The position numbers were made by a program, and so were the translations under genes. From Deferribacter desulfuricans SSM1 (lineage in GTDB: Bacteria > Chrysiogenota > Deferribacteres > Deferribacterales > Deferribacteraceae): a stretch of 64,000 bases of DNA. The notes beneath the pieces were generated by a model. The model made no database searches. It saw only the letters and a list, made by a program, of their open reading frames with translations, and was not told where the DNA came from. Positions 44,468 through 51,558 of this stretch are shown piece by piece (within the stretch, counting starts at the first letter, position 1; each line of letters starts with the position of its first letter). The stretch covers positions 1,889,501 through 1,953,500 of the forward strand of contig NC_013939.1 of assembly GCF_000010985.1 (NCBI RefSeq), written 5' to 3'.

Positions 44468-44553
44468 TGCCCAAGGGGGGACTCGAACCCCCACGGCCTT
44501 TTACGGCCACAGGATCCTGAATCCTGCGTGTCTACCAATTCCACCACTTGGGC
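44468..44553 (-). tRNA. tRNA-Leu (anticodon CAG)
   Basis: 86 bases with a long variable arm. Acceptor GCCCAAG / CTTGGGC, D-arm TGGTGGAATTGGTAGACAC, anticodon loop TTCAGGA and T-arm GGGGG-TTCGAGT-CCCCC. Discriminator A; the CCA is not encoded. Confidence 0.96.
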
Positions 44554-44612: not shown

Positions 44613-45641
44613 TCAATCTAATCTCTTTTCCCACTCAAAAGCACTTTTACAAATCAACTCTAAATTATCAAATTTTGGCTGCCAACCAAGTTTATTTAAG
44701 ATTTTGCTATTATCAGCAATCAGTTTTGATGGATCGCCAGCTCTTCTACCAGTTATTTCCACTTTAAAATCAACACCACTGACTTTTTTCATTGTATTTA
44801 TAACCTCTTTTACCGTATAACCATGCCCATATCCACAATTAAAAATATCACTCACATTCTCATTTAAATAATCAAGTGCCTGCAAGTGAGCCATTGCAAG
44901 ATCATCGACATGAATATAATCTCTAATACATGTACCATCTTTTGTATCGTAATCATCACCAAAAATATAGATTTTATCCCTTTTCCCTGTAGCTGTTTCA
45001 GCTGCCACTTTTATCAAATGTGTCGCTTCAGGAAATGCCTGACCAATTCGAGGATTTATATCCTCTATTGTTTTTGCATTGTTCATATCTGCACCAGCCA
45101 CATTAAAGTACCTTAAAATCACATATTTAAAATCGTTATTTGCCTTTGCAGTATCGATAAGCACTCTCTCGCTCATCATTTTACTCATACCGTAAGGGTT
45201 AATTGGACTTAAAATCGTTGTCTCTTTTACTGGTACCTCTTCAGGCTCCCCATAAACTGCAGCTGTTGATGAAAAGATAAATCTTTCAACCCCATAATTA
45301 GTTGCCAGTCTAATCAAATTTGTGGTATTTACAGTATTATTCATATAATATTTGAGAGGATTTTCCACACTTTCTGGCACAATAATGCTTGCTGCAAAAT
45401 GTATTATTGCATCAAAAGAATATGATTTAAAAATCCCCTCTACTAAACTAAAATTGGATAAATCAGCTTCAATTATTTTTAATCTACCATTCACATCAAT
45501 TTTTTTCAAAGTATCAACATTCTTTCTGCTACCTGTAGAAAAATTATCAAGAATAACAACATTATCAGATCTTTTCTCAAGAATCTCCTTTACTACATGA
45601 CTACCAATATAACCAGCTCCACCAGTAACAAGAATATTCAT
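44613..45641 (-). CDS. galE: UDP-glucose 4-epimerase
   Basis: 342 residues of the extended short-chain dehydrogenase family. The NAD+ site is LVTGGAGYIGSHVVKEI. The catalytic Ser/Thr-Tyr-Lys set appears as FSSTAAVYGEP and NPYGMSKMMSER. The substrate region CIRDYIHVDDLA and YNVGYG-like FNCGYGHGYTVKEV are conserved. It interconverts UDP-glucose and UDP-galactose for surface sugars. AAGGGGGG precedes the ATG. Confidence 0.97.
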   Translation of the reverse strand: MNILVTGGAGYIGSHVVKEILEKRSDNVVILDNFSTGSRKNVDTLKKIDVNGRLKIIEADLSNFSLVEGIFKSYSFDAIIHFAASIIVPESVENPLKYYMNNTVNTTNLIRLATNYGVERFIFSSTAAVYGEPEEVPVKETTILSPINPYGMSKMMSERVLIDTAKANNDFKYVILRYFNVAGADMNNAKTIEDINPRIGQAFPEATHLIKVAAETATGKRDKIYIFGDDYDTKDGTCIRDYIHVDDLAMAHLQALDYLNENVSDIFNCGYGHGYTVKEVINTMKKVSGVDFKVEITGRRAGDPSKLIADNSKILNKLGWQPKFDNLELICKSAFEWEKRLD

Positions 45642-45682: not shown

Positions 45683-45814
45683 TTAATCTTTATTACAAGA
45701 ACAACTACCACCTGTATGAGAACAACACCCATCCTTATTTTTGTTCTTCATAAACAATATAAAAATAAAAAATACAAATGTCACAATCACTACAAATATT
45801 ATAAAATCGATCAC
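45683..45814 (-). CDS. Tiny Cys-rich membrane protein after nqrF, possibly NqrM-like
   Basis: A 43-residue protein with one membrane helix (IDFIIFVVIVTFVFFIFILFM) and a short tail containing four Cys (DGCCSHTGGSCSCNKD). The start is GTG at 45814. GGAGG overlaps the end of nqrF at the right spacing, and the nqrF stop lies one base upstream, so translation is coupled. In other bacteria nqrM, a short membrane protein with four conserved Cys downstream of nqrF, inserts iron into Na+-NQR. The architecture is the same, but the sequence also resembles FeoB-associated Cys-rich proteins. The assignment is therefore an inference from position and topology. Confidence 0.65.
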   Translation of the reverse strand: MIDFIIFVVIVTFVFFIFILFMKNKNKDGCCSHTGGSCSCNKD

Positions 45815-45815
45815 A

Positions 45816-47039
45816 TTACCCTCCAAAATCATCAAAAAGGATATTTTCTCTTTCAACTCCCAGAGAATCAAGCATCTTTAATACTGCTTCAATCATAACA
45901 GGTGGGCCGCACAAATAATATTCACAATCTTCAGGTGCAGGATGATTTTTTAAATAATTTTCATAGACAACCTCATGTATATATCCTGTAAACCCATCCC
46001 AGTTATCCTCAGGTTGAGGATCTGATAATGCTATAAACCATTCAAAGTTATCATGCTCTTTAGCAAGTCTATCGAAGTCCTCTACATAAAAAAGCTCTCT
46101 CTTGCTTCTTGCACCATACCAAAATGTTATCTTCCTATTTGTTTTTACCCTTTTTAATTGATCAAAAATATGAGAACGCATTGGTGCCATACCAGCACCA
46201 CCACCGATAAAAACCATTTCATTATCTGTATCTTTTACAAAAAACTCACCATAAGGGCCCGAAACGGTTACTTTATCTCCAGGTTTCAAACTAAAAACAT
46301 ATGAAGACCCTTTACCAGGTGGAATATCTTTTCTATTTTGAGGTGGAGTTGCAATTCTCACATTGAGCATTATTATCCCCTTCTCTAATGGGTAGTTTGC
46401 CATAGAATAAGCTCTTACAACAGGCTCATCTACCTTGGATACAAGTTCAAATAAACCAGCTTTTTCCCAATCTTCTCTATATTCTTCATCTATATCAAAA
46501 TCTTTGAAATAAGCAGTATAAGGTGGCACCCACACTTGAATAAAACCACCTGCTTTGAAATCAAAATCAACACCCTCAGGGATCTTTAAAACCAGCTCTT
46601 TAATAAAAGTAGCCACATTTTTGTTTGAAATCACTTCACACTCAAGCTGTTTTGCACCAAAGACATCAGGAGATACCTCAATTTTTAAGTCATTTTTAAC
46701 CGTTACCTGACAGCTCAGTCTTACCCCTTCCTTTTCCTCCCTTTTTGAAATATGTGATAGCTCTGTAGGGAGAATATCACCACCACCTTCCAACACCTTC
46801 ACTTTACACAAACCACATGTTCCCTGGCCACCACAAGCAGAAGATAAATAAATCCCATTTTCAGCCAATGCAAATAAAAGCTTACCACCTTTTTGTGTAA
46901 CTAATGGCTCTTTTTCATCATTTATATAAATTTTTACTTCGCCTGTTTGAACAAGCTTACTTTTTGCATATAAAATAACAGCTACAAGCATCAAAATAAT
47001 AAATGTAAAAGATAATACCCCTAAAACTATTTCTATCAA
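45816..47039 (-). CDS. nqrF: Na+-translocating NADH:quinone reductase subunit F
   Basis: 407 residues. N-terminal membrane helix ([15 protein letters not shown]), then a plant-type [2Fe-2S] domain with [16 protein letters not shown] and the distal Cys in VRLSCQV. The FAD domain holds RAYSMANYP and the NADH domain [13 protein letters not shown], ending in [10 protein letters not shown] and the FDDFGG C-terminus. It is the electron-input subunit, oxidising NADH. It is the last Nqr structural gene. Confidence 0.98.
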
Positions 47040-47056
47040 AATCCCACCTCAATACT

Positions 47057-47671
47057 CTATAATTTTATTCCTGAAAAAATCATAAAAGCAATTGCCATTA
47101 AACCAGCTACAATAAAGGTTAAACCGACCCCTTCAAGCCCTTTAGGTGGATTGCTATATTTTAATTTATCTCTTATACCTGCAAGTAAGATAATTGCCAA
47201 AGCCCAACCCATACCTGATCCAAGCCCATACACTATCGATTCAATATGTGTATATTCTCTTTGAACCATAAAGAGAGAGCCACCCAATATTGCACAATTT
47301 ACAGTAATTAACGGAAGATAAATACCAAGTGAGTTGTAGAGTTTTGGAAAAAACTTATCCACAACCATTTCCAAAATTTGAACCATCGCAGCAATCACAC
47401 CAATGTATGATACAAGTCCAATAAACGATAAATCTACATTTTTCAAACCAAGCCAGCTCAAAGCTCCGTCTCTTAGAATATATTGATAAAGGACATTGTT
47501 AGCTGGCACTGTAATAAACTGCACAATGATAACAGCCATCCCAAGCCCAACAGCTGTTTCCATCTTTTTAGAAACAGCTATAAATGTACACATACCAAGG
47601 AAAAAGGATAATGCCATATTTTCTATAAATATAGATTTTACAAAAAGACTAAGCAAATGCTCAAGCATCAT
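47057..47671 (-). CDS. nqrE: Na+-translocating NADH:quinone reductase subunit E
   Basis: 204 residues of the NqrD/NqrE/RnfA/RnfE membrane family with six helices. Conserved Cys-containing helices include [26 protein letters not shown] and [14 protein letters not shown], the sites that share an Fe centre with NqrD. A second ATG follows directly. It overlaps nqrD by 11 bases. Confidence 0.96.
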
Positions 47672-48275
47672 AATCCCCTATCTGCCTTTTAACATGCCAG
47701 ATTAAAAGCCCAATAATAAAAAATGCACTTGGTGCAAGTAAGAACAAACCGTTTGGAGTGTACCAACCACCCTCAGATACAGGTTTTAGAATTGTAATAC
47801 CGAGTAATTTACCAGAACCAATTAACTCTCTAATTATTGCCACTACTATCAAAATCCCACCATAACCGACACCATTACCTATTCCATCTAAAAAACTTTC
47901 TATTGGGCCATTCTTCAGTGCAAAAGCCTCAGCTCTACCCATAATAATACAGTTTGTTATGATTAGCCCCACAAACACAGATAATTGTTTACTTATTTCA
48001 AAGAAATACGCTTTTATAAACTGGTCTGCGATAATAACTAAAGTGGCAATTATAGTTGTCTCAACAATAATTCTTATATTTGTAGGGATATTATCTCTTA
48101 TCAGTGAAATAAAAAGGTTAGAAAAAGCCACTACAAAAGTAACAGCCAAAAACATCACAATCGCAGTCTCAAGTTTAGAAGTCACAGCCAAAGCAGAACA
48201 GATCCCCAACACCTGAACAGCAATCGGGTTATCTCTAAATATAGGTTTTAAGAGGACTTCTTTATACTTTTTCAT
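47661..48275 (-). CDS. nqrD: Na+-translocating NADH:quinone reductase subunit D
   Basis: 204 residues. The pattern [21 protein letters not shown] holds one Cys of the NqrD/NqrE Fe site and [19 protein letters not shown] the second. Six membrane helices. It is 10 bases downstream of nqrC. Confidence 0.96.
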
Positions 48276-48285
48276 CTAACATCCT

Positions 48286-49053
48286 CTAAAATGTATTTTT
48301 CATCAAAAATTTTTTATAACCTCTATCACCCAACCAAAATTTAACCATATTATTTACCCCAGCAGTTGTAAGTGAAGCACCGCTTAAACCATCAACCTGA
48401 TAAATCTTTTCAGCAGAATCAGGATTTACCTCACCTTTAATCACTGTCAATTTTAATCTACCATCCTTATCATAAATCATCTTACCAACCCATTTTCTTT
48501 TCCAAGTAGGGTTATCCACTTCTCCACCAAGCCCAGGAGTTTCCTTATGCTCATAAAAAGTTATACCGCAAATTGACTTATCTTTTGCATTAATACAGAG
48601 AAATCCGTATAATGTTGACCAGAGCCCTTTACCATAAATTGGGACTATAATTTTATTAACACTATTATTTTCTTTAACAAAATAAATTAAAACCTTCTTT
48701 GGTATCCTTCCTATACTTGCCAAATCCTCTTCAGGCTTTAACTTTATAGATTTTGTATCATCATTAAGCATCTTTTTAAAATTTTTATAATAACCACCAA
48801 TATCTTTGATATCCTCTAAATTATATGTTTCCATATCCAATAATTTTGGCAGCAGCTTTTTCCCCAAAATTTCATTTATATTATTTCTTTCATCTATCCC
48901 TGCAACCTGAATAACATTCTTTAAAACATCTTTAATCTGATTTTTCTCTTGAACAGGTTTCAATAATACAGCAGCTGCAGAAACAAGTATAGAGCAAACA
49001 AAAGATATGACAAAAGCAACAAAAAGAGTTTTTCTTTTGCTATCAGGCTGCAA
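48286..49053 (-). CDS. nqrC: Na+-translocating NADH:quinone reductase subunit C
   Basis: 255 residues. One N-terminal membrane helix (FVAFVISFVCSILVSAAAVLL) and a periplasmic FMN-binding domain. The covalent flavin site reads VDGLSGASLTTAG, where the acceptor position of the S-G-A-[TS] motif is Ser rather than the usual Thr. ApbE would perform flavinylation, but no apbE gene is in the window. It overlaps nqrB by 11 bases. Confidence 0.97.
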   Translation of the reverse strand: MQPDSKRKTLFVAFVISFVCSILVSAAAVLLKPVQEKNQIKDVLKNVIQVAGIDERNNINEILGKKLLPKLLDMETYNLEDIKDIGGYYKNFKKMLNDDTKSIKLKPEEDLASIGRIPKKVLIYFVKENNSVNKIIVPIYGKGLWSTLYGFLCINAKDKSICGITFYEHKETPGLGGEVDNPTWKRKWVGKMIYDKDGRLKLTVIKGEVNPDSAEKIYQVDGLSGASLTTAGVNNMVKFWLGDRGYKKFLMKNTF

Positions 49054-50239
49054 CTTTATTTCTCCTTTTAATAACTGATTTTATTACAAAATAATCTATT
49101 GTTGGCGCTACAATATTTGCAAAGATTATAGCAAGCATAGTCCCCTCTGGATAAGCAGGATTTACAACTCTTACAAGCACTGTTAAAGAACCTATAAGAA
49201 AACCATAAATCCATCTTCCTCTATCTGTATAAGCAGCACTTACAGGATCTGTCGCCATGAAAGCTACTCCAAAAGCAAATCCACCCAAAACCAAGTGCCA
49301 ATAAAAAGGTAGATTAAACATATAATTTGTTTGACTACCAATTAGGTTAAAAAGTGTAGAAGTAAAAATCAGCCCTATTACTGCAGAAACCATTATACGC
49401 CATGATGCCACATTACTAACAACCAAAATTAAAGCACCCACGATACATAGGAGTGTAGATGTTTCACCCATTGAGCCAGGGATAAATCCTAAAAAAGCAT
49501 CCATCCATCTATAATGTTCACTAATTATATTATTAGATGATGCAAGTGTTAAAGGAGTAGCAACACTAACAGCATCAATACCAGTCCAAACTCTATCACC
49601 TGTCATACTTGCAGGGTATGAAAAAAACAAAATAGCCCTTGATATCAGTGCTGGGTTTACAACATTCATCCCAGTGCCGCCAAAAAGCTCTTTCCCAAGC
49701 ACTAATCCTAATGAAAGAGCCACTGATGCTTCCCACAATGGGACATTTGGTGGGAGAATTAAAGGATATAATAAGCTTGTTACAAGAAACCCTTCACTTA
49801 TTTCATGTTTTCTAACAACAGCAAACAATACTTCCCAAAAACTACCCACAACCATAGTTACTGCATAAAGGGGTAAAAAGTATGCAAGCCCCACAGCAAA
49901 ATTACTAACAATACTACTATCAAAACTTACATGGAACCATTTTAAAACATCCCAACGAAAACCATCTGGAATTATATTATATTCATTAATTAAAAGGTTC
50001 GTTTGTAATCCTGTATTATAAATAGCAAATATTGTTACTGGTAAAAGTGCTATAACAACAAAAATCATTACCCTTTTAAAATCAGCTACATCCCTTATGT
50101 GACACTTGCCTGAAGTTTTTGTATCTGGTGAGAAAAAGAAAGATTCTGTTGCTTCATAAAGAGGATACCATCTGCTATATTTACCACCTTCTTTAAAGTG
50201 CTCACCTATCTTATCAAAAATCTTTTGCAACCTTTTCAT
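49043..50239 (-). CDS. nqrB: Na+-translocating NADH:quinone reductase subunit B
   Basis: About 399 residues with ten membrane helices. The covalent FMN motif is DAVSVATPLTLA near residue 220. The riboflavin/quinone region includes NVVNPALISRAILFFSYPA and the C-terminal GGFAFGVAFMATDPVSAAYTDRGR. It is the main Na+-channel subunit. The ATG at 50239 overlaps the nqrA stop (TGATG) and has AAGGA six bases upstream. A start two codons earlier (50245) is also open. Confidence 0.97.
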   Translation of the reverse strand: MKRLQKIFDKIGEHFKEGGKYSRWYPLYEATESFFFSPDTKTSGKCHIRDVADFKRVMIFVVIALLPVTIFAIYNTGLQTNLLINEYNIIPDGFRWDVLKWFHVSFDSSIVSNFAVGLAYFLPLYAVTMVVGSFWEVLFAVVRKHEISEGFLVTSLLYPLILPPNVPLWEASVALSLGLVLGKELFGGTGMNVVNPALISRAILFFSYPASMTGDRVWTGIDAVSVATPLTLASSNNIISEHYRWMDAFLGFIPGSMGETSTLLCIVGALILVVSNVASWRIMVSAVIGLIFTSTLFNLIGSQTNYMFNLPFYWHLVLGGFAFGVAFMATDPVSAAYTDRGRWIYGFLIGSLTVLVRVVNPAYPEGTMLAIIFANIVAPTIDYFVIKSVIKRRNKVAA

Positions 50240-51558
50240 CACCATTCCTTCTCTATTGTATCAAGTAGCTCTCTTGAATGTTTTATAAAATCGATTTTAC
50301 TTGGACAAACATATGTATATAAAGAAAAATCCTCTTCACCTAAAGATAAAATACCAAGATCTATGGCTCTATCAATATCCTTTGTCAAAACAGCCCTTAA
50401 TAATGCCAAAGGTTCTGTATCAATAGCTGTAACTTTATTGTACGAAGATATTGGAATAATAGGTCTCAGGCTACCGTGCATCGATGTATCAAAAATATAC
50501 TTTTTAGGTTTAATAAATTTAGAAAGAGCAACGCCTAAAACTGTAAAATATTTTCTTGATGGGGAAATCCACCCAAACAGCCTCTTTTCACCCCCTTCTT
50601 TTATGATTGAAACCTGATTATCGTAAAAACCAACAAAAGGAGCATTTTCATCAATCTTTCTTCCATACAAATAACATCCAGAAATATATCTATAATCTTT
50701 GCTTAAATCCTGTATATTATCAAGCCTGCTCCCTTTTAATATCTTAAATATACCATTTTCTTGAAAGCCATAACCAGCAATAGAAACATATTTATAGGGA
50801 TTAATTTTACCTGTATTAAAAAAATAACCGATATCAATTACAGCTTGATAATCTATGTACCATACTTCTTCTTCCATTGTTGGCTTTCTTAAATAATCGA
50901 TATGGGTACCAGCAAGTCCAGCAGGGTGAGGACCATGAAAAACAGCTACTTCTAATAAATTATCTTCAGATAACATACTTTTATTAAAATCTTTATCAAC
51001 ACATAAAAATGTCTTTACACCAAAAGCTTCCTTTAAGACATTTACCCCTTTTATGAAATTTTCTTTTTCCTTTTCAATGATAAAATTAGGTTCTGGTGCA
51101 AAACCTCTTGTATCTATAGCTGTTACAAAAATTGCTACAGGTTTTGATGTAGAAGAAGGGATTTTATCAAAAGGTCTCTTTCTAAAATATGGCCAAAATC
51201 CATATTTTAATAAAATATATTTATAATTCAAATTGTTATCTTTAAAATCGATAGCTTCTACAGATGTATGATCCTCAACTTCTATACTCAAGTATAAAAA
51301 TTTTCTCTTTTCACCCCTTACAATATTCTTTACAACACCATTTACAGGGGAAACAAAAACCACATCTTCATCTTTTCTATTAATAAAAATTGGTGAACCA
51401 GTAGAAACCTTATCCCCTTCATTCACTAAAAACTTTACCTTTAAACCTGTAAAATCATCACCCACAAAACCAATTTCGCGAGATAACTTTTCCCCTTTAA
51501 AATCACAGACCTTACCAAAAGGGAGCTCAAGCCCCCTTTTAATCTTAATCTCTTTCAT
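50239..51558 (-). CDS. nqrA: Na+-translocating NADH:quinone reductase subunit A
   Basis: 439 residues, a soluble peripheral subunit. It begins IKIKRGLELPFG. The lipoyl-like KVKFLVNEGDKVSTGSPIF and VFVSPVNGVVKNI follow, then AIDTRGFAPEP and HGPHPAGLAGTHIDYL near the middle. It leads the six-gene nqr operon. A promoter with TATAAT lies 30 bases upstream. Confidence 0.97.
   Translation of the reverse strand: MKEIKIKRGLELPFGKVCDFKGEKLSREIGFVGDDFTGLKVKFLVNEGDKVSTGSPIFINRKDEDVVFVSPVNGVVKNIVRGEKRKFLYLSIEVEDHTSVEAIDFKDNNLNYKYILLKYGFWPYFRKRPFDKIPSSTSKPVAIFVTAIDTRGFAPEPNFIIEKEKENFIKGVNVLKEAFGVKTFLCVDKDFNKSMLSEDNLLEVAVFHGPHPAGLAGTHIDYLRKPTMEEEVWYIDYQAVIDIGYFFNTGKINPYKYVSIAGYGFQENGIFKILKGSRLDNIQDLSKDYRYISGCYLYGRKIDENAPFVGFYDNQVSIIKEGGEKRLFGWISPSRKYFTVLGVALSKFIKPKKYIFDTSMHGSLRPIIPISSYNKVTAIDTEPLALLRAVLTKDIDRAIDLGILSLGEEDFSLYTYVCPSKIDFIKHSRELLDTIEKEW

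Follow-up and report, generated by a model that had tools for sequence, protein, structure and literature searches.

The window, by which we mean the whole stretch of 64,000 nucleotides of Deferribacter desulfuricans SSM1 analysed here, carries on its minus strand an nqrA-F operon that is complete by NCBIfam models. It runs from nqrA (50239-51558, TIGR01936) through nqrB (49043-50245, TIGR01937), nqrC (48286-49053, TIGR01938, with the flavinylation-type motif DGLSGAS), nqrD (47661-48275, TIGR01939) and nqrE (47057-47671, TIGR01940) to nqrF (45816-47039, TIGR01941, 677.8 bits). All four cysteines of the intramembrane [2Fe-2S] site (Cys26 and Cys109 of NqrD, Cys28 and Cys126 of NqrE) are found where that site expects them. 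The apbE gene of this organism is not in the nqr operon and is located elsewhere in the genome.

Behind nqrF, on the same strand, lies a small gene (45683-45814; 43 codons plus TAA) whose product, MIDFIIFVVIVTFVFFIFILFMKNKNKDGCCSHTGGSCSCNKD, we propose to be an NQR maturation protein. Its GTG start stands one base beyond the nqrF stop (TAA at 45818-45816), and a GGAGG ribosome-binding site (45820-45824, minus strand) lies within the last nqrF codons, 5 nt before the GTG. An earlier note, made from the letters of the window, had described just this frame, start and GGAGG, and the sequence bears it out. The choice of start deserves brief explanation: the ATG within TAATG at the nqrF stop is out of frame with the small gene, and in-frame TTG or ATG codons within nqrF would extend the protein up to 62 aa; it is the alignment with 16 relatives that places the start at the GTG, a start codon peculiar to the D. 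desulfuricans genome, the relatives having ATG. About 40 nt past the small gene comes a gene for a GalE-like epimerase (window 44613-45641), with no terminator-like site between the two, followed by a tRNA-Leu (CAG) at window 44468-44553.

The protein consists of a membrane helix and a Cys-rich tail. By sequence the helix covers codons 4-22 (45749-45805, minus strand); AlphaFold2 predicts a single helix over residues 2-28, with a mean pLDDT of 94-95 over the first 20 residues. Directly after the membrane helix, as read from sequence, comes KNKNK, and we infer that this side of the helix is cytoplasmic. The four cysteines (residues 30, 31, 38 and 40) fall in a candidate metal-binding tail, CCSHTGGSCSC (codons 30-40; 45695-45727, minus strand), which AlphaFold2 models as disordered and with low confidence. 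One membrane helix followed by the Cys tail GCCSHTGGSCSC is also what the earlier note had seen, and both the sequence and the AlphaFold2 helix agree with it.

Conservation of the small gene

Our sample of the phylum comprises 51 genomes, of which 23 have nqrF and 28 do not. A search for homologues behind nqrF in other genomes, suggested by the earlier note, was rewarding: in 19 of the 23 nqrF-bearing genomes a small ORF with a transmembrane helix and a Cys tail starts at -1 to +6 nt relative to the stop codon of nqrF, in four families and in seven of the nine nqrF-bearing genera. As a background we took 398 ORFs of at least 150 aa (from the window and 400 kb of DNA of the phylum), among which the sole positive is nqrF itself; none of the 397 other ORF ends has an ORF with a transmembrane helix and three cysteines at -8 to +10 nt. 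Pooled within five genera, pN/pS of the small gene is 0.155/0.618, about 0.25, a sign of purifying selection. Because of this occurrence, set against the background, and of the pN/pS ratio, the small gene is a real protein-coding gene. In two relatives a terminator-like stem stands directly 3' of it; given this stem and the conservation at nqrF, it very probably closes the nqr operon in those genomes.

The family is variable in sequence: its members are 43-77 aa long, their alignment has only three invariant columns, and many relatives space their cysteines as CxCx4Cx5C, as opposed to CC-x6-C-x-C in the D. desulfuricans protein. A profile (A2) built from 17 of the nqrF-linked proteins finds exactly one strong match per genome in all 19, each at nqrF; the strong matches outside the build set are those of G008 (almost a duplicate of one inside it) and of G065 (E 8.3e-17). 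Strong matches are absent from all 28 nqrF-less genomes, two of which (G022 and G069) give weak ones, and a genome of the same genus as D. desulfuricans, G001, lacks both nqrF and the small gene. The association of the two genes has a Fisher P of 4.6e-4 by genus and of 1.8e-10 by genome, the latter being optimistic owing to the relatedness of the genomes. In the small genes of family f8 (L018, L019, L025) we also observed a perfect inverted repeat, GGCTCC-TGCGG(A/G)TGC-GGAGCC, which lies in the Cys codons and is conserved at the DNA level.

Comparison with NqrM

We know of no factor for NQR's intramembrane [2Fe-2S] centre other than NqrM; Cys33 of Vibrio NqrM was reportedly found to be essential by Kostyrko et al. 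in 2016. The V. cholerae protein is seemingly required for the insertion of this centre (PMC12174285). The Pfam model of NqrM, PF04400 (cut-off 22 bits), does not match the small protein, nor, at cut-off, anything else in the D. desulfuricans genome. The phylum-wide search took in 22 of its 23 genomes with nqrF (D. desulfuricans and 21 relatives; G065 falls outside this set), and none of them has a match at cut-off. As the built-in controls of the search stayed under the cut-off, 20 other NQR-bearing genomes served as positive control. The model was found above cut-off in 14 of the 15 proteobacterial and Nitrospira genomes among them, which argues that the search is sensitive; control genomes without it at cut-off include those of Melioribacteraceae, Verrucomicrobia, Phycisphaerae and two Hydrogenedentota. 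The earlier note had seen no classical NqrM and would have taken a genuine one elsewhere in the genome as evidence against its reading of the small gene as an NqrM analogue; with the control working, the search of the genome came back empty.

The small protein resembles NqrM in its single N-terminal helix, its basic residues, the roughly four cysteines of its tail and the placing of its gene at the operon end. The first cysteine is residue 30 (30-32 in the family), as compared with about 33 in NqrM. Like NqrM, it occurs solely alongside NQR and is encoded last in the nqr operon, family f2 excepted (see below). The protein has 43 aa against about 58-88 for NqrM, and its gene directly follows nqrF, whereas the order in Proteobacteria is usually nqrF, apbE and then the NqrM gene. 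The typical NqrM spacing is Cx11CxxCx6C, unlike CC-x6-C-x-C, and the GSCGG motif with the subsequent long spacing (Cx6-14C, then CxxCx3-6C) is absent from the small protein; GSCG does occur in some relatives (family f8 and G065), yet it is followed by a short spacing, unlike in NqrM. The analogy drawn in the earlier note is borne out in part: there is a real gene, coupled to nqrF in most nqr-bearing members of the phylum, and no classical NqrM was found, but in Pfam the protein looks nearer to FeoB_associated (below cut-off) than to NqrM, from which it also differs in Cys spacing.

Other phyla provide possible intermediates. In all eight Ignavibacteria-type Bacteroidota loci (L079, L291-L297), a transmembrane protein with the motif CCGGG[HN]C is encoded behind nqrF-apbE, some 1.05-1.8 kb past nqrF itself. 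Less strict versions are seen in Verrucomicrobia (L083) and Phycisphaerae (L129). The Ignavibacteria-type protein has no significant Pfam match and is a candidate for a second NqrM replacement. These proteins share with the small protein the place at the operon end, the helix plus Cys tail and the CC or CxC at the start of the tail, but they differ from it in their length (67-77 aa), in having an extra cysteine further on (often HSC) and in lying behind apbE. We also considered Planctomycetota as a source of variants and set them aside, those with a gene near nqrF having mostly a canonical NqrM.

Four profile sets were compared: A2 (the nqrF-linked family), A3 (NqrM), A4 (feoB-linked proteins) and A5 (the CCGGGHC proteins). 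A3 and A5 match with a profile probability of 97.1% over 58 columns and A2 and A5 at 96.0% over 22 columns; the direct comparison of A2 with NqrM is weak (83.7% over 13 columns, mainly the junction of basic residues and cysteines), and A4 reaches 2.4% with A3 and 18.8% with A5. A common descent with NqrM is suggested by these profiles. In HMM cross-scores, composition-shuffled decoys reach similar values in some cases; short proteins with a helix and cysteines are hard to distinguish, so homology is suggested at most.

Proposed role and alternatives

Given the position, the layout and the complementary occurrence of the two kinds of protein, we think it likely that the small protein is a dedicated maturation protein of Na+-NQR, a minimal, lineage-specific equivalent of NqrM in Deferribacterota. 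It stands outside PF04400 and, by cut-off, outside PF12669 as well, and it probably works like NqrM. In this scenario it would be made together with NqrF through translational coupling and anchored by its N-terminal helix in the membrane beside NqrD and NqrE, with the Lys-rich linker and the four-Cys tail on the cytoplasmic side, as the positive-inside rule would have it. The tail may bind iron or a small Fe-S unit and hand it to the four NqrD/NqrE cysteines, where the intramembrane [2Fe-2S] centre would form, and NQR assembly would then need the small protein. With a candidate of 43 residues that has the layout of NqrM and is absent from relatives lacking nqrF, one can directly test how [2Fe-2S] is built without NqrM; the candidate also offers a minimal model for the loading of an intramembrane [2Fe-2S] centre.

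Whether the protein is an extremely diverged but true descendant of NqrM is a variant of this explanation and compatible with it. The A5 set, which bridges NqrM and the nqrF-linked family, speaks in favour of such a descent, as do the identical slot and layout; the decoys, on the other hand, show that short transmembrane Cys proteins score alike by composition alone, and PF12669 is equally possible as an origin. We hold descent from NqrM to be a serious possibility, if somewhat short of an even one.

The translational coupling and the strict link to nqrF would suit an assembly factor and a subunit equally, so that one might prefer to see in the small protein a seventh NQR subunit, structural or regulatory, whose Cys tail binds metal or senses redox state in the finished enzyme. 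We consider this unlikely: a poorly conserved protein of 43-77 aa would be unusual as a subunit packed in a well conserved complex, and the Vibrio NQR structures list only NqrA-F (PMC12174285).

The nearest Pfam family of the small protein is FeoB_associated (PF12669), which it matches at 23.4 bits (E 7.4e-5), below the cut-off of 27 bits; its relatives score 16.6-25.7 bits or do not match, and NCBIfam models assign the small protein to no family. It is similar to the FeoB_associated proteins in size, in its helix plus Cys tail and in this sub-threshold profile match, but those are coupled to feoB and the small gene to nqrF, besides the score lying below the curated cut-off. FeoC is another small Cys-containing accessory protein, but it is cytoplasmic and linked to feo (PMC8749426), and the small protein has no Pfam match to it. 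The role of the FeoB-associated family, and even its translation, has been described as open (PMC8749426). None of the papers in the library searched ties these small proteins to nqr.

Genuine feoB-linked proteins do exist in the phylum: in families f6 and f7 they are encoded behind feoB, with the FeoB_C and Gate domains confirmed next door, and G034 and G032 have a feoB-linked and an nqrF-linked protein in one genome. The A2 profile passes over the feoB-linked proteins, which sets the nqrF-linked ones apart as a lineage of their own; compared directly, the two sets give 75.3% over 11 columns. According to the earlier note, homologues sitting mainly next to feoB would have counted against a link to NQR; they sit at nqrF, which the small gene adjoins in 19 genomes, apart from the feoB-linked proteins. 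One could still argue, from the best Pfam match and from the bona fide paralogues behind feoB in the same phylum, that a protein of the PF12669 type moved behind nqrF and continues to serve general ferrous-iron traffic, not NQR. This seems improbable to us, since genomes such as G034 and G032 have both forms, of which the nqrF-linked profile skips the feoB-linked one, the small gene is absent from nqrF-less genomes, and the NqrM and A5 profiles give the feoB-linked proteins scores close to zero. Finally, a functionless chance or decaying ORF, as might be suspected of something so short and AT-rich, with a non-ATG start in D. desulfuricans, deserves virtually no credence, being already refuted by conservation (19/23 against 0/397, a pN/pS of 0.25 in five genera) and opposed by the terminator-like stem right after the gene in two relatives.

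If the small protein does act in NQR maturation, proteins close to the FeoB-associated family would gain a possible function. It is tempting to go further and to suppose that NQR biogenesis widely uses a membrane-anchored iron donor with a Cys tail, replaced or remodelled past recognition in different phyla (NqrM, the CCGGGHC proteins, a short Deferribacterota form recruited from the FeoB-associated kind). We regard this generalisation as doubtful; if the recruitment is true, iron for uptake and iron for an Fe-S centre embedded in the membrane would both come from a single kind of small protein. A third small transmembrane Cys protein, GCGCGDGKSCCGG, which adjoins neither feoB nor nqrF, was observed in G006 and G019 (L070 1480-1614, L072 1489-1623).

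Exceptions

In family f2 (G002, G009, G016) NQR is intact and no small gene lies behind nqrF. Three of the four genomes of this family, G016, G002 and G022, have a transmembrane Cys gene of 43 or 33 aa that overlaps the hemD stop (ATGA), the two shorter genes coding for just two cysteines each; at the hemD site of G009 such a gene is missing. The hemD-coupled gene (L225 753-884; L230, L231) is possibly a relocated nqrF-linked gene. In G018 the candidate lies 138 nt downstream of nqrF, within a long open frame (L205 5242-6516), in which a transmembrane helix with CSCGGGGGSC runs on in frame into a lipoprotein-like protein of 424 aa; this is a draft genome, and the long frame may reflect misassembly or a foreign contig.

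In most of the Bacteroidia-type nqr loci of our sample no candidate lies within some 6 kb, and NQR may therefore not always need one. One Bacteroidota nqr locus, L304, encodes a transmembrane protein with another type of tail (FAGTCASNNP...CSVCG) 1168 nt behind nqrF.
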